DNA of 64,000 nt, from positions 1 to 64,000 of the forward strand of contig JAQGBZ010000064.1 of NCBI GenBank assembly GCA_034687125.1, read 5' to 3'. The translations under genes were made by a program, and so were the position numbers. The notes beneath the pieces are model-generated. The model was not told the origin of the DNA and did not search any database. It saw nothing but the letters and a program-made list of their open reading frames with translations. Of this stretch, positions 42,667 through 63,842 are shown in pieces (within the stretch, counting starts at the first letter, position 1; every line of letters starts with the position of its first letter). The stretch is from Neelides folsomi (lineage: Eukaryota; Arthropoda; Collembola; Neelipleona; Neelidae).

Positions 42667-42906
42667 ATGGACGCGATCAAGAAGAAGATGCAGGCGATGA
42701 AGCTGGAGAAGGACAACGCAATGGACCGGGCAGACACCTGCGAACAGCAAGCCCGTGATGCCAATCTCCGTGCTGACAAAACGGAGGAGGAGGTCCGAGC
42801 TCTCCAGAAGAAGATCCAACAGATCGAGAACGAGCTCGACACGTGCCAAGAGAACCTTATGCAAGCTAACACCAAGCTTGAGGAGAAAGAAAAAGCTCTC
42901 CAAAAT
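42667..42906 (+). CDS. Tm: Tropomyosin first coding exon, long (muscle) N-terminus
   Basis: Encodes residues 1-80 ([11 protein letters not shown]... ending KEKALQN), phase 0, donor GTATGG. It contains the head-to-tail overlap N-terminus of long tropomyosins. The ATG context is GCCATGG. Residues 1-80 are carried by one exon here. Confidence 0.95.
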
Positions 42907-45900
42907 GTATGGAAAAACTCATTTCACTTTTTGCTTTAGCCAAGGGGTCAACTCCTATATGACCCCTTGGGTTTCTACTTATAAGAATCATGTATCGGTT
43001 TCATTCATTCAATTATCAATTTCCTTCAAGGGTCAAAGAGACAATTGGAAGCCCATTGTCCAAGTCATTCTCATTCCAAATGGGAATGTTCCCTCCACGA
43101 TTTCATTCTTCAGTAAAGGAGTATGGTCGTTTGTAATCAATTGACAAGGTACGCAAGATGAATGTAAAACCATCTTCGCCCAAATACCCACAATTATACT
43201 TATAGCGAATGAGTCAATGAAGAAATTTGTTTATCAGGGTAAGGTTATATTGATGAGAGATGGCTTGGCCCTGGAAAGGAAATGTTTAAAAATCTCTCAT
43301 CTTCTTCCATTTGTTTATATTTCTATATTTAAAGTACGCCGTCTCATTAATTTTCTTTATAATTTAATTATGTTTAGCCCAATGGTTTAAATTCCATTCA
43401 TTTCAAATCATTACTCATATCATAAATATTTCGAGGAGCATAGAATCTTTAAAATAGTTTAGCAAGGATTTTTTTCAATTCATCATCGAATCAAAGAATT
43501 GTGAAACGAGGGATGCCTTTAGAAAAGATAAGATCGGAGAGAGTGGAAGGTAGTTTAAAGGAGTTTAAAAGTGACTGGGACGTCTATGAATACGAATGAA
43601 TCATTTTGTTTGCTTCATCTCTCCCAGTCTTTCATCTGGTTCTTTTTGGTTCATCCGGTGGCCGGCGAAGTAATTGGGCAAATAGAGTAAGGACGGAGAA
43701 GCTGTGAGTTAAAAAATAGTATTCGTAATAATGACCTTATTTCTGGTCGGGGAGTAGGCGACCCCCATGTGCTCCCCGCATAACTCTCCGACCAGCCCCG
43801 AAGTCGGAGGAGGATCGGGGAAGTGGAGCTGAGAACGGCTATTCTTAGCCGAAACACGATCTCCGGTTAATTTTGGCAGCCGGCTCCTCGTTCCCTCCTT
43901 CGCTTCCAAACCCTTTTAAGGATATCCACGCATAAGAACTCTCCACGACACTTCCTATAAAACCCAACCCGCCTACTCTCCCTTATTTCACACCCCGCTC
44001 GCTTCCTCGTCACTCTTCGACGACGAATCAATCGCACGTTTTCCCAGTTTCATAACTTTATGATGACTCCATTCATAAGAGATCAACCATCCATTTGATG
44101 TGAAAGGAGCCAAATTAACCTTCAAGCTTTAAATTCCAACCACGCTTTTAAATATAAATAGGAAATGTTTAAATTGAATTCTATATTAGCCATCACTTTT
44201 TTAAATTCTCGATTATGCAATCAAAATGGATCCACATAACATTGAATTATTAAAAAAATAATGTAAAACAAGCGTGGATGGAATTTCGTTCAAGAAATAA
44301 ATCCGTATTTAGCCAATGATCAAATAAATGAATAAGATTAGCCAAAAATGTGCTAGGGAGGTTCAGGTTCTGGCCGAAATGTTATGATAATTCAGAGCGT
44401 CTTCCAAGGAAATATATTTTGTAAGAGATTGATAAGGGATTTTTTACGAGCGAGAGAGTTATGATCTCCTTAATGGACTGTAAACCTCTTGAATGAAAAT
44501 TGAAAAGGAATCTGCCAGTGCTTTTTTGGGAATTTGGGTGGCAGTTGGGCAGGGTGAGGCTTTGAAGAAACAATCACCGTCCCATTCCTCCTCGATGACA
44601 CATGGGAGAATGAGACGACGGTGAGCTTAGTGGCCAAATAAGACCACTGGCACCATGGCTGTCTCTGACTCTTACTCAACGGCCCGATCCTCCTGAGAGA
44701 CGTGATTTATTCCACTTCCCCTCTTGCCCTTTTTCAGACTCGCTTTTACATCTCATTATGATTAAACGAGTTTAAATCCTCATTGAGTAATTCCTCAAGG
44801 CTTTGATACCTCCTATAATAACGAGTTAAAGAATAAGGAGCTTACATAAGAAATTAATTCTTCCTTCACTTCTCCTTTTCAACTGTAGGAGAAGCGGTGT
44901 AATCAGTCCCCTATTATTCTTCATACAATTCTTTTTGTAAATACCTGTAAGCTCCTTCCTCATGCTCATAAGTGAAATGATTCAAGGATAAGGACTTCCA
45001 AATTACATTACACTCATATCTTATCATATCATCTTCATCAGGTCAAGGAGTAATGAGCTAGAAAATAAATACAAAAATTAAACGCTCTAGTTATAAGTGC
45101 TTATACGGTATATGTTATAATAAAAAAGATAATTCCTCAAAACAAGCATTTTTATACAAATGTTAATATCACATTAAAACTGTGAGCAAAAACTTTCCTT
45201 TGATGAATAAATTCCGAATTTCATCGAGAGTGTGAAAAATAATGCGGAATTGTAAGAGATAAATGGTGGATGAAGGAGCGGCTTCCTCGCCAACTCCTTG
45301 ATGCTTCAAGACACGACAACTGCATTCATATGAATGTTTGGAAAGAGTCACGACGAGGTTGCGGAAAGTCATAATAGGAGAAAGCCATTAAGTCATAAGA
45401 GAAGGAGGTGGAGTAATTAAGGGCGCCCTTTTAGTCAACTTCTTCCCAATACTTTCCCATTATGACCAAGAGAGAAAGAATATGAAATGGACGGTGAAGA
45501 AGTCGTTCGAATGAGGACGTGTGAGACGGGGAGGGTGGCTAAAAATAGTGTCTGGGAGGTGACCTCGGTGTTTTCCGTCCGGGTCGGAGGGTGGGGAGAG
45601 CTCCCTGGGTGCCAAAATGAGGCATATGTGAAATCAGTTGGTTCTCTCGGGAGCTCGGAAGCGCCTCCGTCTCCCTCCTCCTCCCATCAACCGGCGGCAC
45701 CTGAGGTCGAAAGTGCAGTGGCCCCCACCACAATATTCCATTCAGTCCATTCCATAATAATACATAGAGATAAACAACTCCTCTTGTACCAAGACCCCCT
45801 ACCGAACACGAACACGAACGAACACTTCATTAGAAAGCTAAGCTACAATTGAAATTCTCTTCTTCGACGACTGAACTCAAAAAGCTCAACATTTTTTTCA

Positions 45901-48900
45901 TTTTGCAAAATAAACTTTCGATTTTTTATTATTCATTATAAGAACAATTCTCGTATAAATCTTGGTTATTTGAAGAATAAAGACACAATTTACATACTTG
46001 TATCGACAAAAAGAAAGCAAGATGTAAAAGAGTCATAAGTCTCATTTGTACCTCAAACCAATAACTTTTGAATTCTCGAATTCTCGAAATTGAAATGAAG
46101 ATTGAATTGCCAATCAAAGACATTTCCTCGTGGACATGATGTTTAAATGAGCAAGAGCCAATCATAATGTAACATTAACTGCTTCCCTCGTGTTGACACC
46201 ATGACAAATAGAGTGATATACCAATGCAAGATCAACACTTTAAATCCCTCTTCCATCCAGCTCATCTCTTATCATCTCTGCTCTATATGAGTAAAGGAAG
46301 GCTCTAAATTAAAGATCCGCCGTTATATACACACAAGTCAATGAGGAAATGTGAGAAGCATCTCGTTCTCACATGATGAGTAGGAGGATCACAATTATAG
46401 ATGGACATGAAGAGTGGAAGTAAAGAGATACAGATGGTTCTGGTTCTCCGCCCCTTCTCCACATCTCTCCCCCTTCCATATATCTATATTAACGATTGCA
46501 ACTATTATTGCTAAATTGGCAAAGAAGTTAGCAAACCATTTCTGCAAAAGAGAGTTCCTTCGTCCCTTGTCTCAAGATTGGACCAAAGTGGTCCCGAAGC
46601 AAATAGCGTGGAAAGTGCTTTAACGAGCGTCGTCCTCATCTTTGTTCCATGGCGGAGAGCGGAAAAGTGGGAGACGAAGAGGACCATCAACAAGGAACTC
46701 ACGAGCGAGTCCAGAAAGTGTACGAGCTCTTGGAGCGGCACGGGAACAAGGCGACCCCATGCGAAAGCCGCTTACACCAACAACAACCCCCACTTGTTGG
46801 TTCCTACCAAGAACGCCAGCGAAACCTCCCCAAAGGATCCAGAGATCAACACAGAGATGAGACGCGGAGGAGAGGGAACAATGACGGGAGAAATCGGCGA
46901 CCACGTGCTGGTCCCTCTGCCTCTCCTCCTTCCTGTGATTCCCCTGATGGGGGCGATGAGACTGAGGAGCTCGCTCGCCTCCGCTGTCCCTCCGAGAGAA
47001 CTGAATTAATTTCCGAACGAGAACAGCGAAGACGAAAGCGATGCTCAGACTACCCCGGATTCTCTTTTGGATTCGGAGCCGTGTTCGGCTCGGACACGAT
47101 GATGAAATTCTCCATTATTAAAAATGAGCTCCACAATGTGATTAACGGTCAGCTTAAAAAGGTTATTCAGTTTTTTATCTTCCTTTTTCCATTAGTAAAT
47201 GATATTTAAGTTTGAATTCAATTTTACTCATTGACACACCTTGGGTTTGGGTGCTCAAATTCAATCAAACATCATTTCTGAAACGCGGCATTCTTTTCAA
47301 TTTACTCAATTTTATTAAAGATAAACTCGATACTTCCTCTCGTATAAAAATAAATATCACGTCATATTCGTTCAACAATACCAATATGCACATATTGTTT
47401 AATAACGATTCAAATTATGTGGAAATGACAAAACGTGTACAAATTGTTCAATGTCAATCAAAGTAATGATAACTTCTTATCAAGTTATCAAATTTAAGGA
47501 CTTCTCTTAAAATGTTTGCTTCCAAAACCTCATTCTGATATACTGAATTGAATCTGCTACTTGCAGGGTGGTATTATTTACATATAAGCGTTTAAGTTAA
47601 CAGAAGTTTATAAGTTGTTGACCGTGTTGGTATAAGTTTGTTGCTCTGAAATTAGTACATTAACGATAAAAGATAAGCTCAATTCCCACCCATCCCTATA
47701 CCTGCAATTGTTTAATTAACGTGCTATAAAACATGAAAGCGAGATACTTTATTTGATAAATATTTATTTAATTATTATTGTTCCCAAAATATGACTCAAT
47801 ACTAGGATGAATTTTGCCTTTACACTTACACACCGTACCTACATATATCCCATCCCAGGTATGCATCATCGTGTCATAGACTTATTTCACAGGTATCACT
47901 TTAAAAATATATTACTTGGGTACACACAATTTACACCAGACCTTGCATGTAGTCTTTAGCTCATCTCCCCTATACACACCTTTTATTGTGAATTACTCTC
48001 ACAGACGTGCAAAAAATTATATGGGCTCGGATGAGTCAAGATGAGTCAATTTGTTGGAGACAGCCCTAGATGTTACATGCTAAAAGTAAAAGCTTTATGG
48101 GAGTCCAAAAACCATTATTAAAAGCATCCAATTTCATTTCCAAACTCTTGCTAAAACCCCTCATTTTCGATCCGAATAATTGACAGCCCCATAATTACCC
48201 AATTGAACTCCCATTATACCAGATATCCCAACCACAGCAGACCAGCATGTTCATCATCCCATTATTCACGTACGCCAGGAACGTGTGAATGTCAAGTTAT
48301 TCTCACCCATATCTACGCAATAAACAGATGATAATTTTCGCACACACACGCGTTTGGAAGATGACGAGATGAATGTAAAAGCCACATCTTCACGCATCAC
48401 ATTTAGTGCTCCTTATTTGACTAGCCACACCGTATGTGTTTGGGTGGTTGTATGAAAAACAATAGGAGAGTTCAGGACTATTTAGACTTGCTATTACACT
48501 CTCTCGTTGGTGCATTATGTACGTACACCTGTATGCTCACCTGGGTGGATTAATTGGTAATCAAGGGACGGGAGCGAAGGACTTTGAGGATCATTTGGTC
48601 TCCTCCTCCTCCGTCTCGAGTATCTGGGTATGACAGGTGTAAGGGAGATGGAGAGATTCGCGAAGAATTTGGTGTAAGATGAGGGATTAGGTTTGCTGGC
48701 GGAGAAGGCTGTTGTTGGGCCGAGGTCGATGTATCATTCCGCTCCGTCCACTCCCATGTAGACATTTGAGTAGGTGAGAGAGTCGGCTTTTCATTCACCC
48801 TCCATCGACATATTGGGAGAGCAGAGGACAAAGTTGGGTTCTCGACGTCGTCTCCTTGCTCCCAGGACCTCCATTGACCCACGGTCATCACCCTGTTGAA

Positions 48901-51900
48901 GAGGAAGTGAGGTGGAATTTTCCCTAACGCCGACACAACTCTCCGTGGTCCAAACCACTTGACGAAATGGCCCAAATCCAACAAGGCGGACTCCTCGACG
49001 TCCTCAAGAAGAAGATGAGGCAGACGAAGGACGAGATGGAGAAGTACAAGGAGGATTGTGAAGAGTTGCAAAAGAAACTTAACTTTGAGGTCATGCGACG
49101 AGAAGAAGTAAGACATAACGATTTACGAAAAATATTTATCCCATTTCAATTTCGATTTCAAAATGAATCGGTATTTTACCCATCGATCTCCACATACCGA
49201 CATTCCACTCTTTCCCCCCGATCATCCTCATTTGTTGTTTAGCGGAAGGATGTGTAAAAAATGGAGGGCGGCATCAATGTCATGTTGACTTCCGGGAAGC
49301 ATTTTAATTTGGTAACGAATTTCATTCTATTTGAGAGGTAATTCACCTGCTGAGTTCCTAATCCGAGTAAACAAAGGATCGGAAACAGATTGAATGGAGA
49401 AATAAATTACGGGAGACATTTCTTTCTCCTAATGAATGACCCAGACACTCTAACGATTATTTTTATTTCAAGTATAATTACCAAATTCGTGTAAATAGAG
49501 ATATTCCCAATTTATTGTGTGTGTTTTAAATGTGTGTAGATATATAATTTATATAAACGCACAAACTCAATCGCAAACAATTGAATTTGAGTTTGTATTA
49601 AAAGGGATGGGATGTGTTGGGAAAGAATAGTAATTTAAATATTTAACTGATTTCGAGCAAATATTTGCACTGGGAAAATGAGCAAATTGTATGGTAATGC
49701 TACAATAATGAATTTTTTTTAAATTCGAATGAAAATGAAACCGACCATGATTCAATTAATTAAATCAAAATCTCCATTTAAAATGGAAATAATGATAGGG
49801 TTAAAGAATTTAAATGACTAATGAATTGTTCTATCATAGGCCGAAGCAGAAGTTGCAGCTCTCAATCGTCGTATCCAACTGATTGAGGAGGATTTGGAGC
49901 GTTCGGAGGAGCGTCTTGGAACTGCCACCACGAAATTGGCTGAAGCCACCCACATGGCTGACGAATCTGAGCGGTATTTTAAATACTCAATACATTCATC
50001 AAAAATATCATATTTAAATATGAAAGGGTCAAGAGGAAACTTGTGTGTTCAAGTATAAAAATCCAAATATATCTATGCATCTACTTTAATTAAAATGAGT
50101 CTTTTTTATTTTCTAAAAAAGAAACGAGGCGAAGATTTTAATTTCATGCTCTCCAGTTACAAATTAATAAGAGTAATTGATGACAAAGATAATGAGGAGA
50201 GGAACGTCAATTTTTTTCCTCTAACGGAGTTCCCTCAATTTTCATTTTCCACCACGTCATGTTATGTCTAATTATAAGGAAGGCGTGATGAGCCTGATGG
50301 GGCTAAATTAATTAAATTACAAAATATATGAACACCACGATCTGTGTATATATGCAGAATAAGGAAAGCATTAGAGAACCGGAGTAACATGGAAGACGAC
50401 CGAGTTGGAATATTAGAAGCACAGTTAGCCCAAGCTAAATTAATTGCTGAGGAGGCTGACAAAAAATACGAAGAGGTAAAAATGTCACTTTTGCAGACAA
50501 TCACATTTTTGAATCCCATGAACCCTCAGTCCTTCTCCACAATATGAACCTTTCCTCATTCCTTCCTCATTCGAAGACAAATCTGTGCTCGGATCCACTC
50601 TACGCCTTATAAGACCTCAACAAAGGGGAAAACAATGCCGATTGTGACAAACTTTAAATGATCATTTCAATTTCAGCCACTGACCCTATCCTTCAAACCA
50701 TAAAGAAAAAAAACTATTATGCTGTTCAAACTCTGTCAATTCCCTTTCTTCACTCCTCTCTCGACAGATTTGATGAATGTTATAAACTCCCTCATTTCAA
50801 TTCTATTCCCTCTTTTACATCTTCTCTATATACACCTCAAGACCAGACAGAAATGTCAATTGAATTTCAATCATTCCTTCACAGCCACGCTACAAACACT
50901 TTCTTGTCTAAATAAGTCGTAAATGTATACTATACTCTCTAGTCTGTTCTGTACTTATTTTTGAAGCAGCTCAGAAGTAACGTTTGATCGCCACGTATTT
51001 TAATTGCAAATTTTTTTTCAACCGCAAATGAGCCGTAGTAGTCGTAGAATATATTTATTTATTTTTTATGTAGATGTGGAACACATTCATTATATTAGCT
51101 TTCATTCAATCTCCCACTGCGTCAAGTTTTTAAGGTGGAGGGAAAACGAGGACGCAGAGATGGAAGATTATTAATTCATTAATTACTCCTTTAACGTCTC
51201 TTTTATACAATAAATACATAGCGTGATTGAGTAAGTAGTGCGAGATAATCGGACTTTTTCAACTAGCCAGTAAATAATATTTTTTAATTATTGTCATTAT
51301 TATGAAGATATTTATTAACTAAAACTGAATGTGTTAAAAAATATTCAGTTTGTGTCGGTTGACCTCTGCAGTTTGACAGATTTCAACTTTATACTTATGG
51401 TTAAATAGACTCTTGTATATATGCAATTCAAGTTGCCCTCTGACCCTAGAATATGAAGATTAGTAATGAAGAGGGATTATGGAAATGATAATGTGGGGTA
51501 AACATGCAGTATGCGCAAAGTATTGGAGAACCGCTCACTCTCCGATGAAGAGCGTATGGATGCTCTTGAGAACCAGCTGAAGGAAGCCAGGTTCCTCGCT
51601 GAGGAGGCCGACCGAAAATACGATGAGGTCTTCATCTCTTATATATCATTTATGTGTTCCCTTTACATAATATTTTAGTGTGTTAAAACTACAATTAATA
51701 TATTCTATGTTATTAATGTCTTAATTTTATGGATTTTATTAAACCTTTCAACCCAATCATAATAATTTGAGGCATTTAGCAATATACACTAAAACTCATT
51801 TAACAAAATGGAGTGAACATTACTTTTATGAAATTATACGAAAGCTTTTTTTATATTTTTATCATGAAATATAACTGTTTAAGTAGGTTATCTAGGACTG

Positions 51901-54900
51901 ATTAGATTTAATAGAAAAAGATAAAACTTCATTCCAATGGTAGAAAAATGTTTGGATAATTATTGTTTAAAAGAAAAACGATGAATCGTTTGCCAGGAAT
52001 GCGTTGATGAATGAATGGTGATACTTTAGATGTTGAGAAGAATGGAGGATTCCCAATTAAATATTTATCCATCAACGATTAAGGAATTGTTCGGACATGA
52101 TCATCTTATTGCCAGAGTCCATTAAAGGAATAATAGGGTAAAGAAACTCAGATAGGATTATAATGTGTGGTGATGAGAGTTTTAAGAGAAATGAGAAGTT
52201 GATGACTTCATTGAATTCTCTTCGTTTCGGCTCGATGCTTCAGTTAAGTCCAGTCCTCTGTCTCCTATTGTATTTCCTGTGGGCTGTCCCCCAACAGCTC
52301 AAGGTGCTTGTACACCAGCTTTTGAGCCTACACACGAAATTGTATAAGGAAGAGGAGAAGCTCTTCTATTTTAGTAAAGGAATTTTTAGGAGGGTTGGAG
52401 TTTGGCCAAGAGAGAATGAGTTCTCTTTAAGCCGGTATTCTGATTTTATGAATGTTTAATTTACCGTAGCCAACTTTATATTTACATTATAGCCAGGAGA
52501 AGAGGAAGTGAGGATGGGGAAGAGAAGGAGTGAATTATGAATTCCATATTACACTCAAGTTCAATACTTTCTATTCCCTTTACAGAGATATTAAATTAAG
52601 AAATGAGTCAAATGAATCATGAGATGAGATATTTGTAGCTCATTAGGATAGGATATGGGCAAAGACAGGATGTAGGGAGTTTTTAAAATTGCTTTCACTC
52701 ACTTCACAGTTAAATGTGTATATTTTGAATTGCTTCATCGATTAAAGCTATTGATATTAACAGCCAACAATTAGCCACAATTAAATATTAAACTTTATGA
52801 TTGCTTTCAACTAATGTAAGAGATACATTTAAAATAAGTAGTTGTTAATGTAGCAATTGAAGATAACATGTTATACTTTATAGCGGCTTAGCCATTCGCT
52901 CAAACTACTACTACCTTTAGTTTTAATAAATGTTTGTTTAAATATTTAATTTATGAAAGTGGAGAAAAGTATTTGATTTGGGATTTGTGGGGAATTCGAA
53001 GGTGGCCCGTAAGTTAGCCATGGTTGAAGCCGATTTGGAACGTGCTGAGGAACGTGCCGAAACCGGTGAATCGTGAGTAAACGAATATTCAAGTTAATCC
53101 ATGGTTTTCTTTTCATTTTGCTCCTCGTTTAAGCATTTGTAATTTTTATATTTTTTATGCATTCGAGTGGTATTTTTTAGCTGTACAAATATGAATTTTC
53201 GTTTAATGCTAAAATTACGCTTCAACTTCAATTGACACTTTTGTAAACAATACGAATTGTTTTGACTCGCTTACGGTTAATTGTAAATCAACCAACCAAC
53301 CAACTTGTATGACGTTAATAATATTATTATTTAAAGAACTATAATTTCAAAAATATCCAATTCTTAAAAGATTGTCACACTTTTAAGCATGAACTTATTC
53401 GACATGACACCAGCGATCTTACTTATAAGGCAATCTTATAATTTATGAAGTTTGGGCAAAAAATGTTCAAAAAGCTCTCTTGGCCAAAGTGGCGAACAGA
53501 TTTGTTTTCGTAATTTCCTTTAAACCCTCACGCACCATTCACTTTGACATTATATTTTGAGTTGTTTTTTTACTCGTGACTAACCATTTGTTTCTAACCT
53601 TTATTTTACGTTCGATTTGCTGTGTCCCGTGTGCGTTTGACGTGCGAAACCTTAGGTCGCTCGGAAGCTAGTTATGATGGAACAAGATCTAGAGAGAGCC
53701 GAAGAGAGAGCCGATCAAGGGGAATCGTATGTGACTAACCATTCCGTTTTACATTAATTGGTTTTTCGCTTCTTTTGATTTGCTATTTTTTGAAAACTAA
53801 TAAATAATGTATTTGTCTATCAAAGGTCATATGGGCAAAATAATAAAAAAACTTTTGTATTTTTAAAGGAAAATCGTTGAGCTGGAGGAGGAGTTAAGAG
53901 TTGTCGGAAACAACCTTAAGTCATTGGAAGTGTCTGAGGAGAAGGTATGATCACACATAAATTAAACATCTATTATAAATTATTTTATACATTACTTTAT
54001 CTATAAATATTATAAATAATTTATATAAAATATTTTAAACTATACAATTTATATAAATTCGGAATGTAAATTATTTAAGAATTGTTCGAATCAAACCACA
54101 TTTAAGTGATTATAGTTATCTATCAGAATATTGATATTTGTATTTGTATACGAATTATTTAAATGCCAAATTTCTATTCCTTTTTCCTTCAAATACCAAT
54201 AACCAAACGAATTATCCTGTAAGGTTTAGGTCAGAAAGGAAAACAAGCATGAAAGTGTTGAAAATTGAGATTAGAAGAGAAATCTTTACCATTTACCACA
54301 GTGCTTTATAAATACATGTAGTTAGATTCGAGAGATTTTTACTTTAACAAAAACTTAGGATTAGGATTTGTATCTTATTAACCTTGCAATAGACTGTACC
54401 AGCTCTCGAGTTCTTTATTATTTCCTATTTAGTAGATAAATTATTTTCCCTTTATTCGTTCCTATTATTTTTACGAAATTTTAAATTAAATAGTTTTTAT
54501 TCCCCCGATGAAACCCTTATTTAACCTATTTTGTACTCTTTTTATTATTACTTATTTTGTAATTTATTCTTAAATTATTTATTCAATGAAAGAGATTTAT
54601 AATTTATTTTTATTTTCCTTCATTTCCTATTCCTCTTCATTTACCCTTGTGGACCAATTCGGGACACGAACTTGTTGGCTTCGTGTGTGATGGGTCTTTG
54701 AATGTGAACACAGGCTCGTCAACGTGAAGACGAATTTAAAGAACAGATTAAGAACATGACTGCTAGGCTGAAGCAGGTACAAATTAAAGGCCTACACGTG
54801 TCTGAATCGAGACACAGGCACCTACAGGACTTCTCACTCCCGGACAAAACATTCCTTTTATGTTCCCCAACCACCTTTTGTGCAAAGTTGAATTTTAAAT

Positions 54901-57900
54901 TTCATTTTTATAAATGTTGAATTTTTAAATGTATTTTTTCCATATTTTTCCTTGCTTTCCTCTTAAAATATTTTTCTACTTTTCGTTTCTTATTTGTGTT
55001 TGATAAAGCATAGAAGCTATGTAATGACCTAATATAGCCTGTGTGAACTTTTTTCTTACTAATGAAAGGCTCGATGATTAAGTCCACCAATGTTAACTTT
55101 AAAACGGTTTTCCTATGACGTTTGAACAATAATGATGATGTAACAAAATAATTATGATCCTTTACAAGGCAAGATAGTGGAGAAGTGTCCATTTAGGGAA
55201 GTAGGAATAAAGTAGTACATATAAGGGCATCTTTATGCCTAAATTTTTCCGATTCTCTGACCCACTAGTCAACAACATGAATCGAAGGCTCTTATTGCAA
55301 GATAGAAAGATATAAGGCAGATACAAAATAGGATTTACGCCAAAAGGGAACAATACTTATTAGCTTTTGTATAAAAGAACAAGTCTGTTAAGTATGGTAT
55401 AATACTCAGGCAAATCAACGTGAGGAGGAGTATAAGGGCCAGATCAAGATGCTCACGACGCGGCTCAAGGAGGTACACACCAGATCGAGTGTCCATACAT
55501 TCTCCTTGACATGACGGACAAAATGACACCTTAAAAACTGACACACACGACCCTCACACCTTTTATTTACTTTACCCGAGACTAATTGAGAATAATTGTC
55601 TCCGTGGGATGTTCCCACTTATTGAAACTTGTTCAACAGTTTCAAACTTCCTTTATTTCTTTATCTTTTCATGCTACAGAGTGGCGAATTTATTAGAACA
55701 TTATTATGTACATGGCTTCGAGCACATTCACTAAAGTATTTCATTTTCCACTTTAACTATTTTTTTAAATAACCAATTTTCTTTATAAATAACGAACGTA
55801 GTTTTTGGGACTCTCAAACTTTGGGAGAAACAAGAGCCTATCAGTTTATTAAATTGAACTACTAAATACTTGACATTGTAGGTCTTCCTCAATGCCTTTG
55901 CCTGAACGAAGGGCAATTTATTATAGAAAACCCTCCTTCATTTTTAGCTACCTTGTATAGATATCATTTATGAAAGTAGGCATCTCCTTTTATGATTATT
56001 TTAATTTACGCTACCATTCGTAAACACATTTAGTGGTAGAGAGGGCGATTCATTATTTTTCATGTAGAACTTTACTTAAATGTTAGCCGAGTTGGATAAA
56101 CCTTTAATTTTATGTAGCTAACTTTGTTCAACCACTTTACTACTGGACGAGGTGGAGTTGGCTATATATGGATTTGAGTTTGATTTAATAATGTGTTCAG
56201 CGACGAGTTCCTCCTTTTTCCTATGACCTCATGAATTAACAAGTTTACTCCTTGTCTCCTAAATTTACAATTGGCATGTATTTTCTAACGATTTTCCTAA
56301 TACGTATACGAATATTTTTTCTTATAATAGTCAATAATGCAAAGAGTTTTTAATTAAGGTTTGAATTAACAGAGTGATTAGTTTTAAATTAATACTAAAA
56401 AATGATGTGATAATAATTCTTTAACGTTTGAAACTAACGAAAGCATGGTTTTCTTTTTCTTTTATGTATTGTGGCGTTCAGGCTTCTCAAATGGAAGAAG
56501 CCTATGCCATTCAAATTCGTGGCGTGTCTGACTCCCTCAAAGAAGTAAGTTTTACGAGAACAAAAGACTTCGAAGTGTGAGAAATTGTGGACAATTCTCA
56601 ATGGAGTGACATTTTTAAGACATTTTACTTAATACATCCTCAAGTATAAATTGCTTAATTTGTTGTATTGTAAGTTTTAGCATTGCTTGCCCGCAAAAAC
56701 ATTAAATAATTTGATTCAATATTATTCTTCGAGATCATCATTATCAATCTTACAATATTTTACTATACATACATATTTCAACCTTTTCTATATTAATACA
56801 TGGCCTGTCTGTCCTAACGAGTCCAATAATATTGTTTATTGTAGTTATTATATTATATGTTTAAAGAAGGGATTGTATGGTTGAATTCTCCCAGTTGTCA
56901 CCACTGAAGAAGATGGAATGAAATGTGTGGTTGTTCCGAATTTGAATTCGAATGAGCTTAAGGCACGCTAGATGGGAAAGCCGTTACTTTGTTGAACACG
57001 ATACGAGAGAGAAGCAAATAAGGGAAGGATAGATGGATGAAGGATCTCTTTTCTTCCTCACTTTCTACCTAATCGCAATCCTTTCTCGTGGAATAAAGAG
57101 ATTTTTTTCTCTCTCTCGTTTTTGAGATTAGAAAGGAATCCCCTGAGAGTTGAAATGAAGTAAACTCGTAAAGAAATGGAATTAGGGAAAAGTCTTTAGA
57201 TAAAATAAGATGAAGTGTTTTTCTTAATCGTAGCTCATTACTCATTTGCTACTTCATTACTTTATTACCCTCTTTATCATTGACTCGAGCGTTTTTCTCA
57301 TCCCTTTTTACACAAAAAAGTTATTAGCCATCACCCTTCTAAACACCATATTTTATGTGTTTAATTTTTAATCTTATTTCTTTTTATTCCATTTGTTAAC
57401 TTGTATGATAAAAGATTATTTACAACTCGTCTTATACTCTCCGTCATGAGATTTTATTTCATCTAAAATGGAATAAGTTAAAGTTTCGTTTTGTGTTTGA
57501 AAATAGAAAAGATTTATTTATGCGAGGTTTCGTATATGTAATGGATAATGTATTTATTTGTATTGTATTTATTCTTTTGTTGATGGAAGGACCAAATAGA
57601 GAAATAAATGGAATCCCTGAGTGAAGGGAGTATAAAAGAAAGGAGGAGAGTAAAGCTCCTTTGGCAATGAGAGAAACGTGAAATGAAAAGTCTCTGTCAC
57701 TCTCATTTGAAATGAGAGAAGAAGAAAAGAGATGACTTCCGGAGCTTAGGAGCTACACACATTTTAAAAAAATAATTCTCCTGGATTTTCATGGCTGGGC
57801 TAAGGAATAAAGAACAAAGAGATTCGAAATATACTATAAAGGTCGAAGGTAGTACACAACGATAAATCCACCATCAAAAACCCATAAAGTAAAGAAAGAA

Positions 57901-60900
57901 TTTTGGTGATAGGAAAAGATGTTGAAAATCGAAAAGTTTTTATAAATCCTTTAAACGATGCCTTTCATAGATAGCTCTTCATAACTTTCTACCCGGAGTT
58001 TTCAGCGCCCTCGTAAATATGATTGTTTAGTACGCTTTCGCCCTATTTGGCCCCTTTAATTCACCCTTTTTCATTTTATTCAGTCATGGTAAAAAAAGGA
58101 GTCGAATAGTAAAATCCCCCTTTGTTTATGAATTGGACCTTCGAAAGAGCAAAGGACATAAAATTGAGGATTTCCTTTGAAAATAAAGAGAGTTTAATAG
58201 GACTGATGATGGTGCTAGTGAGGAATAAATGCTCAAATGCTTTACCGCTTGTCTTAACTAATAAAAAATATTATATTCCATCCTGTCAACCCCTTTCCCC
58301 CTTCAATGTTTCTCATATCACTTTTGCATGGAAAAATGCTTCTGTTTGTTATGTCTGGATGTCAGAGTGTGATTATGAGGTTCTCTAAGTAAGGTAAGAT
58401 TTAACTTGAAAGGGACGGAGGACGATTAAGCTTCCCTTTGTACATAGTATTGTATTTTAAGCTTGAGTGAGTTTGAAGTCCAAGTTGTATTTTGAGTATG
58501 AGACACTGTAATTCTCACTTCCTCCTCGCTTCCTCCAAGTAAGTCACAATTCATGTAAGACTACATTTATGGGAAAATGAAGAGCTGAACAAATCCAACT
58601 GCTTGCTTAGCTTTCACTTCGCTTCCTCTCCTCTATAAATACTGCATCTGCTATGTCTGGCCGCGGCCGTAAGTATTTTCTCTGTACTATGGATTTGGAA
58701 CATAAACTTGGGTTTTTTCATGACTTTCTACAAATTCCATTTTAATTGTTCTCGTCTTTCAACCATATGCTTATGCTATGTACGTTCAACTATTGTTCCG
58801 ACTGTCCTCAAAGAGTTAAAGCATCAAAACCATTTGGTATTTTATAAACATGAAATATTTGATTTAAAAAAATTAAATTTGATGCTTTCACTCAAGACCT
58901 TTCAAATCATCTTGTATGTAAATGTCTGTTAATGTCTGACGATTGACGATCCCTTGAAAATGTCCATTCTGCCCTTATAGTTGTTATATTTACTAACTTT
59001 GCTCCCGACTTTTGACACAATACTCACAAACCGATTCCCCATATTGGGCAATTAAATAATATGAGGGATTGAAATGATAGGCTGAGGCCCGTGCGGAGTT
59101 CGCTGAGAGGTCCGTGCAGAAGTTGCAGAAGGAAGTCGACAGACTGGAAGGTAATCTACAACTCCTTACTAAAACTTCATCTCATATTCATATCAAATAT
59201 TTACATTTATTTGCAATGTTCATAGGGTTGTATATATGATGCATGATTATTATTTGATTATATGCAAATATGATGTATTTAATAAAAAATGTAATATTGT
59301 ATATAAGTATATAATGTAATATAAATGTAGTATATTGGTATTTGACATATCTAATACATATTATGTATTTAATACGTTTAAAGTAAACGTTAAATTAAGT
59401 AGGGCCCTATTTTAACTATTGATTCTGTAAAAGGGTCGCGAATGTTAAATTATTCTTGATATAAGTAGTAATAAGTAATGTTTAAGTGATAAATGTTGTT
59501 AGTTATTATTATTATTAGGAAAAATGATAAATTAGATAGTTAGCTTGATTCATTTATCTAGAAATTTATCCATTACTGAGTTATTCTTATCATTTATTCG
59601 AGTCTTAAGTTGGATTTATGAATCACCACACTGTATTTACAGAGAAGAGAAACAAAACAAATATAACGAGAGTATTAATCATGAAATTCTCTGGGAGATG
59701 TGAAGAATTACATTTAGTATTAGGATGAAGTGGAGGGCATCGAGGTAGTTACGATATTCGTTAATGGGGAGCCTTTCTCTCCTCGGAGACTAAAATTAAT
59801 TACAAATGTCAACAGATAATAATTTATCATTGTCTCTTCATCTAATAAAGCCCTTCTTGTGGGGGTTTGGAGCTAGGAGTAAGTCGTAAGTGGAGGGATC
59901 TATTTTTTCCGTTTCAATAGAGCTAGAAGTGCCATTTATTATTTAATGATTAGACTCCCTCATGATGTATTAAGGCGTAGGTGGAGAAAAATTAATAAAT
60001 AAGATTGAATGCCGGGTTGAAGAGAAATGTGTTGTCTTCTCGTAGATGATTTGATTGGGGAGAGAGAGAAGAGCAGAATAATCCAAGAAGAAATGGAAGC
60101 CACTTTACAGGATATCCAGAACATGTGATTTTTTTATTTTTATTTTGGGGTGGGGGGTCTTTCATTCTCTAGCAAGCAAGCTCTATAGCTTACGATCACA
60201 ACTTAAATGTAGAAGGTGATGGGACGCATTAAAAAATATCTCGCGTATTCTCAAGCTATTATTTCAAGGCATTTTCTCCCGGCTCATTTATTACTCGAAG
60301 CTTTTCAGTAAATACAAATCATTGAAGAAGAAGGTGGAGTTTCTCTTTCCTAAACCAAAAAGGAAAAGGAAGGAAGTGTATAAAAGAATTGGTGGGGGTT
60401 AAAGGTCGAGGCTATTGGAGTTCTTAGAATTTTTTCTATTATAGAAAATGGGACTATCAGTCTATGGAATCGATTAACTTCGTACTTATGACAAGAGAAA
60501 GTAAACTTCTTGAGTCTTCAGGAACCCACTTTCCCCCCAATTCCCCTGTTTTTGTAAGAGTGGAGAGGAGTGGAGAAATTTCTTTTATTTCCACTCCGTT
60601 TTTCCTCTCTCGGGTCAAGTATTCCATTTAGACTGGGGGGAAAAGGTTGGAGATGAAGAGCCGTTGGGTAAATGGACTCAAGTGGTTAAATTTTTAAAGG
60701 GATTGTTTGAAAGGGAAGTGGACACGATGGACTTTACGTGTCCAATTCAGAAAGGAACACTTTCAGGCACTTTGAAGAAAGAGAAACTCCTCCACCTCCT
60801 TCAATTTCTTTTAAGAGCTAAATCACTAAAAAATTTCCCCATCTTGACCTGACAGAGAGTTGAGAGCAAATTGGGGAATTCTCTACTGGAGAATTTACTA

Positions 60901-63842
60901 CATACCATGAGTTTACATTTGCTAGTCGGGTGGTGGGATTTAATTTCTTACGTCTATTCCGCTTGCACATTCCTTTTATAGTCAAGTTGGCTCCAACCAG
61001 CTCCAAAACCGTTCGTCTTATATGCACATGCACTTATGTGAGCCTTCATCGTCGAGCATTAAATCGCGAAATAGCTTCACCTTCCGTTAAACTAGAGATC
61101 CCTATTACAATCCGCAAAGGGGCATTATCGTTAACTTCGAATTCGGGAAAATCAAGATTTATGGCTCCAACGTGGAAATGAGAAAGGGGATTTTAAAACC
61201 TCGAACTTCGCTGCACTTTTTTGTGTAAAATAATGGTGAAATGAAGATGTTTTTTTAAACTTTTTGAGTTAGATATGACATCAAATATTTTTGTCTAGAT
61301 GATTTGATATGCGAGAAGGAGAAGTATAAGTCAATCACGACGGAGATGGACGTTACCTTTGGGGAAATCTCTGGCTATTGATTGCCAGTTCCCACTCAAA
61401 ACGCGTACATTCACGAAACCAAAGTTGTTTAGGTTCCTTTTTTAAAACACTCGTGTGTTCTCTCTCTCTTCTGTTTTAATCAACTTCATAATTTTGAAGT
61501 TCAATAAAAAGTGTCTGCCGCAACTAGAACACTCGTGGTTGGACACTTTTTTGGCGTGAAAATCACGTCACGTGTTTTTAATTATGATTGGCCAAAATTC
61601 GAGAGCCTATTCATTAATAATAATAAAGTTTTCGCCTATACTTATTTTTATTTTGCTAAAGGTCTTATTTAAGATTTTGTTAATTATTTTTATATTATCA
61701 TTTTACCTCTAATTAAAGTTTATAATTTAGCAGAGTTAATGGTGGATAAATTTCAGTTATTAATTATTATATTTTAAGTTAACTTTAATTTAAACAACTC
61801 GACGTCAGTCTACGATCAAATTAAAAATAATAATTGTGAAGAGTTATTAAAATGGTTGGATTAAATAGATGAGTTGGTCTGCGAGAAAGAAAAATATAAG
61901 TCAATTTGCGACGAACTGGACGGAACGTTCAAGGAAATGTCAGCCTATTAAGGACCTTCTACCCTTTCATCGTTTAACTCTCTTCCAACAAATATTCAAC
62001 TAGGTTTCCCCTTTATTTATCAAGTAGCTCATTAGCACTGTCCTTGTCAAAAAAATACTATTCAGGTCCAGTTCAATTTATGTAAGATGAATTAATTGAG
62101 AGTTAAAGTGTGCTTTAATCCGTCCTGTCAGTTACTCATAATTAAATGAGTAACAAAAATAATATAAACTATGAGAATATTTCTGAAGGTAAAATAGAAT
62201 GGAGAAAGTTGATTTGACCTATCTACTATTTATACGTATTATTTACTTCTGATTAAAAGTAATATTTTCTCTAAAGTTTTATATTTTTATTAATTGGTAA
62301 TTGATAAAATATGTTTACAGTAAATATGAATATTTAGTAATAATTAATGAAAAGATTTAATTAATTTATCAAAATCGTCTCGTTTCGTTTGTTAATGTAC
62401 TCGGTTATTACATGTTTATACGTATGTCGAGAGTTTATTTGTTTTACTCGGCTAACCAGACGTTGTAGCTGTTATTTATTAAGAGTGGATTGGTAGTCAG
62501 ATTTATATTGGATAAAGAGAGGAAAAGAGATTGGAGAAAAAAACTACAAATGTTCGTCTGCTTTCTGCTTTTTCCAGACGAATTGGTGAACGAAAAGGAA
62601 AAATACAAGTCCATTTCCGACGAGCTCGACGTTACCTTTTCCGAACTCACAGGCTATTAAGCTCCTCCTCTCTAGTCACAATTATTCTTCACTCACTCTC
62701 TATATTCATGTCAGTGAAATCTTTTTATATATTCAATTATTATCAAATTCTCAGCCTCCACACTTATTGAATGAATCATTTGTTTTATTTATTTTTTACT
62801 TTCCTTATTTTAACATTTCTTCAGTTTTGTATTCACAACCCCATTTGCCATTTCCTGTATTTCACATTCCCCTTTTAAGTTGCATTTTTTGCCTTTACAA
62901 ACCCACCATTGAACCTTTATTTGCCCAATATCTCTTGGAAGAGGAATTTAAAGAACGTTTCAAATCGAAATTTTGAGTGGAATTGCATTTCCCTGTTTCA
63001 CCTCATTTTGATTAAATTCAAGTAAAGGAAATACCTTCTTGACAAATAGCTTTTTTCCCTTCTTACCTCACGTTATTAAACCCTTTAAACCTCAATTTGA
63101 GAAGAAAAGAAATAAAAAAGGAATGCCTTTGTTAAAAAATACAGCTGCCTCGTCTTCCTCGCTTTTTTATAATATATGTAATATATACACACCCAACTTT
63201 TACTAATTCAACCCGAGCTTCTCTCGTTGTTTTCCCTAGTAGAATCTTCCCTAAAAAGAAAATTGGAGTCATCAGTGACAAAAGACAAGCTTCAAAGGGC
63301 GTATGAATCCTTGGTCTAACGCTTTTCCCCCATATATTTATACTGATACAGTCAACTGACTCGTTCTTCTCATTTCTTTTTCGACTCGCGCTTCCTTCAC
63401 TGCCTCCGTTGAGTTCAAAAGAATTACTTTGCCAGCTTTTTCCTCGTCGTATATTGTCAATATTTGTTCAATGTCTTTTGATCTTTATATTCCTCACAGT
63501 ATTTCTTTCTTGTACACTTGTAGTCGTGTAGCGTGATTATTAGTATTATTAGATCATGTTTTCCGCCTCATGAGTGTTATTGAAGCTCGCGAATCAGATT
63601 CGACACTGATGAACGAGATTAGCATTGACAAAAAATGCACTCTGTCAGTGGAATTGGCGATGTTCCTTTCTCTTAACTTTTTTACTTACTACTTCCGTGC
63701 TTCCTTCATGACTTTCCAAATGGATTAAAAGGGATTAAAATGAGTTTTGTGTTTTTCAGATGAGCTGGTCAACGAGAAGGAGAAATACAAATCAATTGCA
63801 GATGAAATGGATCAAACGTTTGCGGAATTGGCTGGATATTAG
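42667..63842 (+). CDS. Tm: Tropomyosin gene with multiple alternative exons
   Basis: Two-stranded coiled-coil protein that lies along actin filaments and, in muscle, controls myosin access with troponin. Shared exons are 49840-49973, 53869-53944 and 59081-59150; all others are alternatives: three first coding exons, two of exon A (50358 or 51510), two of exon B (53002 or 53656), three of exon C (54714, 55410 or 56482) and five terminal exons. The path 42667-42906, 49840, 51510, 53002, 53869, 55410, 59081, 63760 gives 855 bp, exactly 284 residues, the standard length, in unbroken heptads. It begins [20 protein letters not shown] as in crustacean muscle tropomyosin. Which combinations are used cannot be read from DNA. 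Confidence 0.96.
43956..43962 (+). promoter_or_regulatory. TATA box in a GC-rich island in the first tropomyosin intron
   Basis: TATAAAA at the end of a GC-rich block (about 43640-43950), with TTTCACA 29 bp downstream as a possible initiator. No coding exon follows closely, so it may start a transcript with a noncoding leader that splices to one of the later first exons. Confidence 0.4.
45539..45548 (+). promoter_or_regulatory. Perfect MEF2 site in an intronic GC-rich island
   Basis: CTAAAAATAG, an exact MEF2 consensus, lies inside a GC-rich block (45480-45740), so chance is less likely than in the AT-rich surroundings. A TCAGTC initiator-like match follows at 45742-45747. Candidate intronic muscle enhancer or alternative promoter. 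Confidence 0.45.
46649..47161 (+). CDS. Tm: Tropomyosin alternative first exon with 171-residue atypical N-terminus
   Basis: ATG at 46649 (context TTCCATGG) opens 171 codons ending at AAG before GTTATT, phase 0, so it can join the shared exon at 49840. The bulk is charged and disordered (Arg, Glu, Gln, Pro). The last part, [20 protein letters not shown] and then [12 protein letters not shown], looks like a folded lead-in to the coiled coil and recalls the long non-muscle N-terminus of fly Tm1-I/C, the atypical form tied to kinesin and mRNA transport (from memory). With the standard downstream exons the protein would be 375 residues. The donor is not strong, and the joint is inferred. Confidence 0.7.
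48967..49107 (+). CDS. Tm: Tropomyosin alternative first exon, short (cytoplasmic) N-terminus
   Basis: 47 codons starting [20 protein letters not shown] and ending MRREE, donor GTAAGA, phase 0 into the exon at 49840. This is the [13 protein letters not shown]-type start of short cytoskeletal tropomyosins, which replaces the 80-residue muscle start and gives about 251 residues. A GC-rich block at 48550-48966 just upstream is its likely promoter and 5' UTR. Confidence 0.92.
49840..49973 (+). CDS. Tm: Tropomyosin shared exon (residues 81-125)
   Basis: [19 protein letters not shown]...ADESER, acceptor CATAG, donor GTATTT, phase 0 to 2. It is the first exon common to all three starts. Confidence 0.96.
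50358..50475 (+). CDS. Tm: Tropomyosin alternative exon A1 (residues 126-164)
   Basis: Encodes [20 protein letters not shown]...KKYEE. Same length (118 bp) and phases as A2 at 51510, so the two are interchangeable and mutually exclusive by frame. More diverged from the usual crustacean sequence than A2. Confidence 0.93.
51510..51627 (+). CDS. Tm: Tropomyosin alternative exon A2 (residues 126-164)
   Basis: Encodes [20 protein letters not shown]...RKYDE, the usual arthropod muscle sequence. 118 bp, the same phases as A1. Confidence 0.95.
53002..53072 (+). CDS. Tm: Tropomyosin alternative exon B1
   Basis: 71 bp encoding [20 protein letters not shown]...GES, the canonical muscle form. Donor GTGAGT. 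Confidence 0.95.
53656..53726 (+). CDS. Tm: Tropomyosin alternative exon B2
   Basis: 71 bp encoding [20 protein letters not shown]...GES. Same phases as B1, with five conservative differences at heptad surface positions. Donor GTATGT. Confidence 0.94.
53869..53944 (+). CDS. Tm: Tropomyosin shared exon (about residues 188-213)
   Basis: [20 protein letters not shown]...EEK, 76 bp, joins B1 or B2 to any of the three C exons. Confidence 0.96.
54714..54776 (+). CDS. Tm: Tropomyosin alternative exon C1
   Basis: 63 bp, 21 codons: [20 protein letters not shown], then Q. Acceptor CACAG, donor GTACAA; phase 0 on both sides. Confidence 0.93.
55410..55472 (+). CDS. Tm: Tropomyosin alternative exon C2
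   Basis: 63 bp, 21 codons: [20 protein letters not shown], then E. Closest to the crustacean muscle isoform at this position. Confidence 0.95.
56482..56544 (+). CDS. Tm: Tropomyosin alternative exon C3
   Basis: 63 bp, 21 codons: [20 protein letters not shown], then E. The most diverged of the three, with a different charge pattern; acceptor TTCAG, donor GTAAGT. Confidence 0.92.
56545..59080 (+). other. Tm: Tropomyosin intron between the C exons and the shared exon at 59081
   Basis: 2.5 kb, AT-rich. No further tropomyosin-like exon found. A TATA box with a five-codon histone-like start lies at 58634-58668. Confidence 0.6.
58634..58668 (+). promoter_or_regulatory. TATA box and isolated MSGRG start codon segment
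   Basis: TATAAAT (58634-58640) precedes an ATG at 58653 reading MSGRG and then a GTAAGT donor-like site. MSGRG is the start of histone H2A, but no H2A body follows in any frame. It may be a stranded histone promoter fragment or chance; its phase (1) does not fit the tropomyosin exon downstream. Confidence 0.25.
59081..59150 (+). CDS. Tm: Tropomyosin shared exon (about residues 235-257)
   Basis: [20 protein letters not shown], then RLE. Ends in phase 1 before GTAATC and feeds all five terminal exons. Confidence 0.96.
60046..60128 (+). CDS. Tm: Tropomyosin terminal exon T1 (diverged C-terminus)
   Basis: 83 bp ending in [23 protein letters not shown], then LQDIQNM. Same length and phase as the other terminal exons but a different end, lacking the ELxGY tail. 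Such an end should change head-to-tail overlap and troponin-T contact. Confidence 0.85.
61299..61381 (+). CDS. Tm: Tropomyosin terminal exon T2
   Basis: 83 bp ending in [23 protein letters not shown], then FGEISGY. A polyadenylation signal AATAAA lies at 61503-61508. Confidence 0.93.
61503..61508 (+). terminator. Polyadenylation signal after terminal exon T2
   Basis: AATAAA 122 bp past the T2 stop, consistent with T2 ending its own transcript. Confidence 0.5.
61869..61951 (+). CDS. Tm: Tropomyosin terminal exon T3
   Basis: 83 bp ending in [23 protein letters not shown], then FKEMSAY. Carries two cysteines in this segment, unlike T4 and T5. Confidence 0.93.
62578..62660 (+). CDS. Tm: Tropomyosin terminal exon T4
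   Basis: 83 bp ending in [23 protein letters not shown], then FSELTGY. Close to the standard crustacean muscle C-terminus. Confidence 0.94.
63760..63842 (+). CDS. Tm: Tropomyosin terminal exon T5
   Basis: 83 bp ending in [23 protein letters not shown], then FAELAGY. The last terminal exon visible; more could lie beyond the window edge. Confidence 0.94.

Follow-up and report, generated by a model that had tools for sequence, protein, structure and literature searches.

A single tropomyosin gene in the springtail Neelides folsomi with three alternative starts, four phase-matched exon banks and a start resembling Drosophila Tm1-I/C

The stretch of DNA analyzed here (hereafter the window) comprises positions 1 to 64,000 of contig JAQGBZ010000064.1 from the assembly GCA_034687125.1 of Neelides folsomi (Collembola), and it holds a complete tropomyosin gene of 18 coding exons on the + strand. 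We consider it very probable that this is one pancrustacean tropomyosin gene in which promoters at three alternative starts set the class of product and four phase-matched banks of exons are used in coupled, tissue-specific choices. Most of the gene is of a familiar kind; what deserves attention is its atypical start, exon 1i.

A complete gene with three starts and four exon banks

The gene extends from the ATG of exon 1a at 42667 to the stop codon of exon 9e at 63842, and each exon could be placed at exact coordinates. Three starts (1a, 1i and 1b), each ending in phase 0 ahead of exon 3, are combined with the common exons 3, 6 and 8 and with four banks of homologous tandem exons of equal length and phase: two members of 118 nucleotides (nt) in bank 4, two of 71 nt in bank 5, three of 63 nt in bank 7 and five of 83 nt, including the stop codon, in bank 9. 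GT was present at 13 of 13 donors and AG at 15 of 15 acceptors. A preliminary description of this DNA had recognized an arthropod tropomyosin with 18 exons, three starts, three common exons and banks of 2, 2, 3 and 5, each bank uniform in length and phase; our map reproduces that layout exactly, down to the coordinates and with GT-AG junctions throughout.

Exons 3, 4a, 4b, 5a through 8 and 9b through 9e were placed by probe match, junctions and a same-length scan; evidence for the others is given with the coordinates below, where donors are written exon/intron.

42667..42906, + strand: exon 1a, long start, residues 1-80; donor AAT/gtatgg, PF00261 match with E 5.1e-15, probe score 287
46649..47161, + strand: exon 1i, atypical start, 171 amino acids (aa); last 28 aa match 7bjs_C (E 3.4e-7, 19/28), donor AAG/gttatt
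48967..49107, + strand: exon 1b, short (low-molecular-weight) start, 47 aa; open reading frame (ORF), donor GAA/gtaaga, 1b-3 junction 12/13 against a moth peptide
49840..49973, + strand: exon 3, common, 134 nt
50358..50475, + strand: exon 4a, 118 nt, the type present in a moth midgut protein; peptide match in addition
51510..51627, + strand: exon 4b, 118 nt, nearest to exon 4 of the fly atypical Tm1; donor GAG/gtcttc, the weakest
53002..53072, + strand: exon 5a, 71 nt
53656..53726, + strand: exon 5b, 71 nt
53869..53944, + strand: exon 6, common, 76 nt
54714..54776, + strand: exon 7a, 63 nt, residues 214-234 of the long form
55410..55472, + strand: exon 7b, 63 nt
56482..56544, + strand: exon 7c, 63 nt; a/d core kept, fewer basic residues
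59081..59150, + strand: exon 8, common, 70 nt
60046..60128, + strand: last exon 9a, ending ...LQDIQNM; probe, junctions, and 13/16 against a moth midgut C-terminal peptide
61299..61381, + strand: last exon 9b
61869..61951, + strand: last exon 9c
62578..62660, + strand: last exon 9d
63760..63842, + strand: last exon 9e

The assignments of exons 3-9 lie far beyond chance similarity. Segments of exact length and frame, bounded by AG and GT (or by a stop codon for exon 9), were scored over 42907-65900 (+ strand) and in 40 dinucleotide shuffles. The 15 exons belonging to exons 3-9 scored 99-209, self-matches included, against a shuffle maximum of 24, and no further same-length copies of exons 3-9 were found in this interval. 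The shuffle test and the systematic scan covered exons 3-9 only, the starts standing on the probe (1a), the ORF and donor (1b) and the Protein Data Bank (PDB) match (1i). With generic arthropod tropomyosin probes, the weakest scores were 46 for 7c and 51-53 for 9a; the best sites outside tropomyosin exons reached 22 with the exon-7 probe and 25-29 with the exon-9 probes. Beyond 9e, no additional exon 8 or 9 was detected on either strand of the contig from 63 to 73 kb.

The encoded protein has the sequence properties of a tropomyosin. The combination 1a-3-4b-5a-6-7b-8-9d specifies 284 aa in an uninterrupted heptad coiled-coil pattern; hydrophobic residues, counting A, number 36 and 31 at the core positions of the best register compared to 3-12 at the other five. 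Residues 1-282 of this form could be aligned to tropomyosins of known structure (1c1g_A, E 4.5e-80).

It is also the sole tropomyosin gene found in the assembly, which was searched across 75.1 Mb and 840 contigs. Taken exon by exon, 4 of the 6 PF00261 matches in the window passed the cut-off of 38.6 bits, and no match elsewhere in the assembly did so, a match on contig C103 reaching 25.6 bits. A protein search of the assembly returned 12 matches, 11 of them in the tropomyosin locus and the remaining one, on contig C29, with E 4.9. Since PF00261 matches below the cut-off were also obtained in 5 of 14 control genomes, such weak matches mean only a coiled coil, and we rejected the C103 and C29 matches as a second tropomyosin gene.

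The third start matches the kinesin-binding type

By its sequence, exon 1i matches the Drosophila Tm1-I/C type, in which a kinesin-1-binding helix is joined to exon 3, a type that the preliminary description had not named. The last 28 aa of the exon align with the Drosophila chain 7bjs_C (molecule SD21996p) in a stretch that includes an unbroken SDTMMKF block and reaches the final residue of the exon. The match then spans exon 3 and enters exon 4 (7bjg_A, E 6.8e-38, for a query carrying exon 4a). With 4b as the fourth exon, the 1i tail and exons 3-4b were identical to the fly chain at 83 of 102 positions, and exon 4 of the fly atypical Tm1 agreed with 4b at 32 of 37 residues versus 20 of 37 for 4a. 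Exons 1a and 1b are without this kinesin-helix sequence. In crystal 7bjs the SD21996p chain is paired with kinesin heavy chain (7bjs_A); from this pairing and from a published description, we take SD21996p to be the atypical tropomyosin Tm1-I/C. The complex of Tm1-I/C with the kinesin tail is described in PMC8247605.

The genome also encodes a kinesin heavy-chain tail that is identical to 7bjs_A at 78 of 88 residues. Another solved kinesin-1 tail, 8rhb_K, also matches over nearly the whole query, so the presence of the partner tail lends weak support.

A separate observation concerns this tail (L012, about 1618-1690; G000:C5 near 358.8 kb), which reads IVK at the position of the autoinhibitory motif IAK of 8rhb_K. 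The motif lies across a predicted intron, and the splice was read by eye.

Reading frame and choice within the banks

All 180 exon combinations gave one open frame with one terminal stop, and no two of the encoded proteins, which have 284, 251 or 375 aa, were alike. The preliminary description had put forward 180 possible proteins from this gene. That every combination is open and in frame was borne out, but as a statement of repertoire the number runs against the coupled choices seen in insect proteins, and is better read as an upper bound that comes from arithmetic than as a protein count.

The banks differ in what an error of choice would do to the frame. Joining both members of bank 4 or bank 5, or neither, threw the frame out, and each of four test cases met a stop codon once 129-192 residues had been read. 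Bank 7 could be omitted, duplicated or triplicated without loss of frame because 63 nt specify 21 residues, or three heptads. The reading frame together with decay could thus guard bank 4 and bank 5 against errors, and some different control is required for bank 7. The introns that separate neighbouring members within the internal banks measure 583, 633, 1,009 and 1,034 bases, lengths that make crowding an unlikely reason for exclusivity.

Donor strength was scored with an approximate matrix and ran from -0.6 (4b, the lowest) to 8.7 (7c, the best) over the 13 donors. Acceptors were poor in pyrimidines for 4b (5 of 17) and poorer still for the common exon 8 (4 of 17). Splice motifs were not enriched, with observed/expected counts of 3/2.8 for TGCATG, 8/10.2 for GCATG, 10/8.9 for TGTTTG and 11/12.3 for ACTAAY.

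Separately, GTGTG was counted 18 times in 42907-63759 against 9.2 in dinucleotide shuffles, exons being unmasked; these are possibly splice-regulator sites.

Most duplications are old

At residues shared between bank members, the synonymous codons were identical in 11/21 cases for 4a/4b, 5/17 for 5a/5b and 5/13, 4/7 and 3/10 for bank 7, while the ten pairs of bank 9 gave 8/11, 4/8, 1/8, 4/8, 10/18, 11/18, 8/17, 9/20, 11/19 and 8/22. Summed over all pairs, which are not independent, identity was 102/217 (0.47) compared to about 0.42 expected from codon usage alone. With synonymous sites this near saturation, the duplications are mostly old and a recent lineage-specific expansion is unlikely, though the 9a/9b pair hints at something younger or constrained. 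Divergence within their banks is greatest for 7c and 9a.

Comparison with other arthropods, which drew on fly, moth and tarantula proteins, points the same way. For the midgut brush border of a moth, a 29.6 kDa protein identified as tropomyosin-2 isoform 4 was reported with its peptides (PMC5793094). These agreed with our locus at 12/13 residues across the 1b-3 junction, at 16/19 and 7/8 in exon 4a and at 13/16 at the end of 9a; the alternatives fared worse, with only 2-4/16 for 9b-9e at the C-terminus and 6/19 for 4b at the exon-4 peptide. Because the peptides were assigned to one database protein, the exon join is that of the matched isoform. A single matched protein thus unites the short start, 4a and 9a types, indicating that choices are coupled in insects. 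For bank 7, two tarantula tropomyosins, one of them known from its C-terminal 176 residues only, differ only at residues 214-234, a difference that the authors equate with Drosophila exon 7a/7b (PMC2674065); these residues are exactly exon 7 in the long form here. In Drosophila neural tissue, RNA-seq recorded a mutually exclusive exon event of Tm1 (PMC11765297). Members of banks 4, 7 and 9 consequently have counterparts in flies, moths or tarantula. Bank 5 exists in insects too. The lineage-specific repertoire suggested in the preliminary description is at odds with the bank 4, 7 and 9 types of moth, fly and tarantula and with the near-saturated synonymous sites; what survives of it is that five last exons exceed the three of fly Tm1.

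Exon 7c may be a variant with altered function. Its peptide keeps the a/d core and has 2 basic residues, versus 6 in 7a and 5 in 7b. In C. elegans, actin binding was so poor in an isoform carrying an unusual exon 7c that no affinity could be measured (PMC10512467), and by analogy the present 7c can reasonably be predicted to bind actin weakly. Common descent of the two exons is not indicated: the worm exon is described as unfavourable for a coiled coil, whereas the springtail exon retains its core.

A proposed scheme of exon use and its alternatives

We propose that separate promoters set the product class. Exon 1a would yield a 284-residue muscle-type thin-filament tropomyosin, 1b a 251-residue short non-muscle cytoskeletal tropomyosin, and 1i a 375-residue atypical tropomyosin like Drosophila Tm1-I/C, which links RNA to kinesin-1 as an adaptor. 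Each tissue would choose one member of every bank, with choices coupled into a muscle set (1a, 4b and one of the ends 9b-9e), a gut or cytoskeleton set (1b, 4a and 9a) and an atypical set (1i and 4b). The muscle set follows known muscle sequences, by which 1a, 4b and 9b-9e would be of muscle type. Errors in bank 4 or 5, whether no member or both, would shift the frame and send the transcript to nonsense-mediated decay, while doubling in bank 7 would stay in frame, so that exclusion there would be regulated in some other way. Swaps of exons 7 and 9 would alter actin affinity and head-to-tail overlap.

Several observations weigh against this scheme. Exon use was read from genomic sequence alone. 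The first 143 aa of 1i, with 27 K/R, 25 D/E and an abundance of G, S, P and Q, are not clearly basic. The 4b donor at 51628 has the score of -0.6, which would be surprising in a principal muscle exon that needs no activation; such weakness fits, but does not prove, an exon that must be switched on. AATAAA followed 9a-9e 0, 2, 0, 1 and 4 times compared to mononucleotide-shuffle means of 0.9, 0.6, 1.1, 0.6 and 3.9, and these counts, not clearly above the shuffle level, are uninformative as to separate 3' ends. Competing RNA pairing was evaluated as ungapped stems in six layouts with 40 shuffles each, and the observed value was reached by 15, 6, 17, 7, 1 and 5 of them, which is not convincing evidence for RNA pairing as the cause of exclusivity.

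Two other accounts of the banks seem improbable to us, in about equal measure. If exons were combined freely, most of the 180 proteins would be made and the large bank set would be a lineage-specific expansion. This would agree with all 180 combinations being open, with five last exons where fly Tm1, lev-11 and TPM1 have three (PMC9741552), and with synonymous identity above the usage level in 9a/9b (8/11), 9b/9d (11/18) and 9c/9e (11/19). However, insect proteins couple their choices (short start with 4a and 9a in the moth, atypical start with the 4b type in the fly), the overall identity near the usage expectation means that most copies are old, and other arthropods have counterparts for members of banks 4, 7 and 9. 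Alternatively, some exons could be decaying, unused relics, the likeliest being 4b, whose donor is poor, or else 7c or a member of 9a-9c. The divergence of 7c and 9a would suit this account, as would the weakest donor and pyrimidine-poor acceptor of 4b, although the acceptor is a weak point given the even poorer one of exon 8. Yet every exon is open with exact length, phase and AG/GT, 9a and 4a match the moth peptides, 4b shares 32 of 37 residues with its fly counterpart, and the donor of 7c outscores the other 12.

We think it more improbable still that the likeness of 1i to fly Tm1-I/C is convergence or coiled-coil chance, 1i being just another tropomyosin N-terminus. The match covers only 28 of the 171 residues, and in the PDB the first 143 aa returned only one weak, unrelated match (E 0.63). 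Nevertheless, identity at 19 of 28 positions with SDTMMKF unbroken, extending to the last residue of the exon and across the junction into exon 3, is hard to reconcile with chance, as is the lack of such sequence in 1a and 1b.

Relation to known tropomyosin genes

The locus resembles Drosophila Tm1, which likewise has several starts, Tm1-I/C among them, a 7a/7b choice covering residues 214-234 (in the tropomyosin I gene; PMC2674065) and tandem last exons (PMC9741552), with a mutually exclusive event in use (PMC11765297). The fly, however, has two genes, Tm1 and Tm2, with seven tandem-exon events in total and three tandem 3' exons in Tm1 (PMC9741552), whereas here everything found lies at a single locus with five last exons and three exon-7 members. 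A review cites old mapping of a linked third, cytoplasmic fly gene, Tm3 (PMC13322953). As in Tm1-I/C (also aTm1), the atypical start exon ends in a putative kinesin-binding helix and continues into exon 3, but the product has 375 aa versus 441 in the fly (PMC10948360), its N-terminal 143 aa are without a solved relative, and its adaptor role is a prediction. In the fly form, a long and disordered N-terminal domain both binds RNA and inhibits kinesin.

C. elegans lev-11 is comparable in being one gene with several exon banks and three exon-7 alternatives, one of them poor in actin binding, and has two promoters (PMC10512467); its banks, the N-terminal event aside, appear unrelated to those of the fly (PMC9741552). 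Vertebrate TPM1 shares long and short starts and tandem 3' exons, three in its case (PMC9741552). The 284-aa product is alignable with it over 1-282. To our knowledge, TPM1 has no atypical start.

Further observations

In the intron between 7c and 8, positions 58632-58670 read TATAAATA then ATGTCTGGCCGCGGCC with a GTAAGT donor. This sequence resembles the first codons of a histone, and a DNA search of the genome gave no second copy of the element. Elsewhere in the assembly, a mitochondrial contig of 15,157 bases (G000:C742; L010, L011) has the ancestral pancrustacean gene order, as read by eye, and the minus strand of L013 (G000:C223:18001-20500) carries a 2-oxoglutarate oxygenase-like gene (DIOX_N, 98.8 bits) that is seemingly split by an intron. 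DIOX_N had 8 matches in the assembly and hemocyanin 3, neither of which helped to place the animal more closely.

A possible early origin of the kinesin-RNA adaptor form

An RNA-carrying tropomyosin that binds kinesin-1 is known mainly as the oskar mRNA adaptor in fly oocytes. The resemblance of 1i suggests that this form may have belonged to the tropomyosin gene of pancrustaceans from early on, and that its first job would have been to carry RNAs other than oskar, a view that we hold tentatively and with somewhat less than even confidence. A search of the assembly for the OSK domain gave no match, but the same search was also silent in control genomes and so cannot show absence. The odorant-receptor family PF02949 had three matches, all over the cut-off and at most 36 bits, in genes seen exon by exon; two of the three places fit the gustatory family better, and the third (contig C641, 29.4 bits) had no gustatory match. 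The lack of a strong match to the insect odorant co-receptor makes a winged insect less likely, and the doubt left by these matches slightly lowers our confidence in an early origin. A literature search returned no paper joining tropomyosin, kinesin, oskar and crustacean.

One gene in this springtail carries an exon repertoire that is spread over two genes in flies and four in humans (gene counts from PMC9741552). Its exon 7c offers a second natural test, beside the worm exon 7c, of whether one exon tunes actin affinity. As a compact and fully mapped example, the locus makes it testable whether the kinesin-RNA adaptor tropomyosin predates oskar. If 1i is indeed expressed and binds the kinesin tail here, the fly oocyte system would have borrowed an older transport adaptor.
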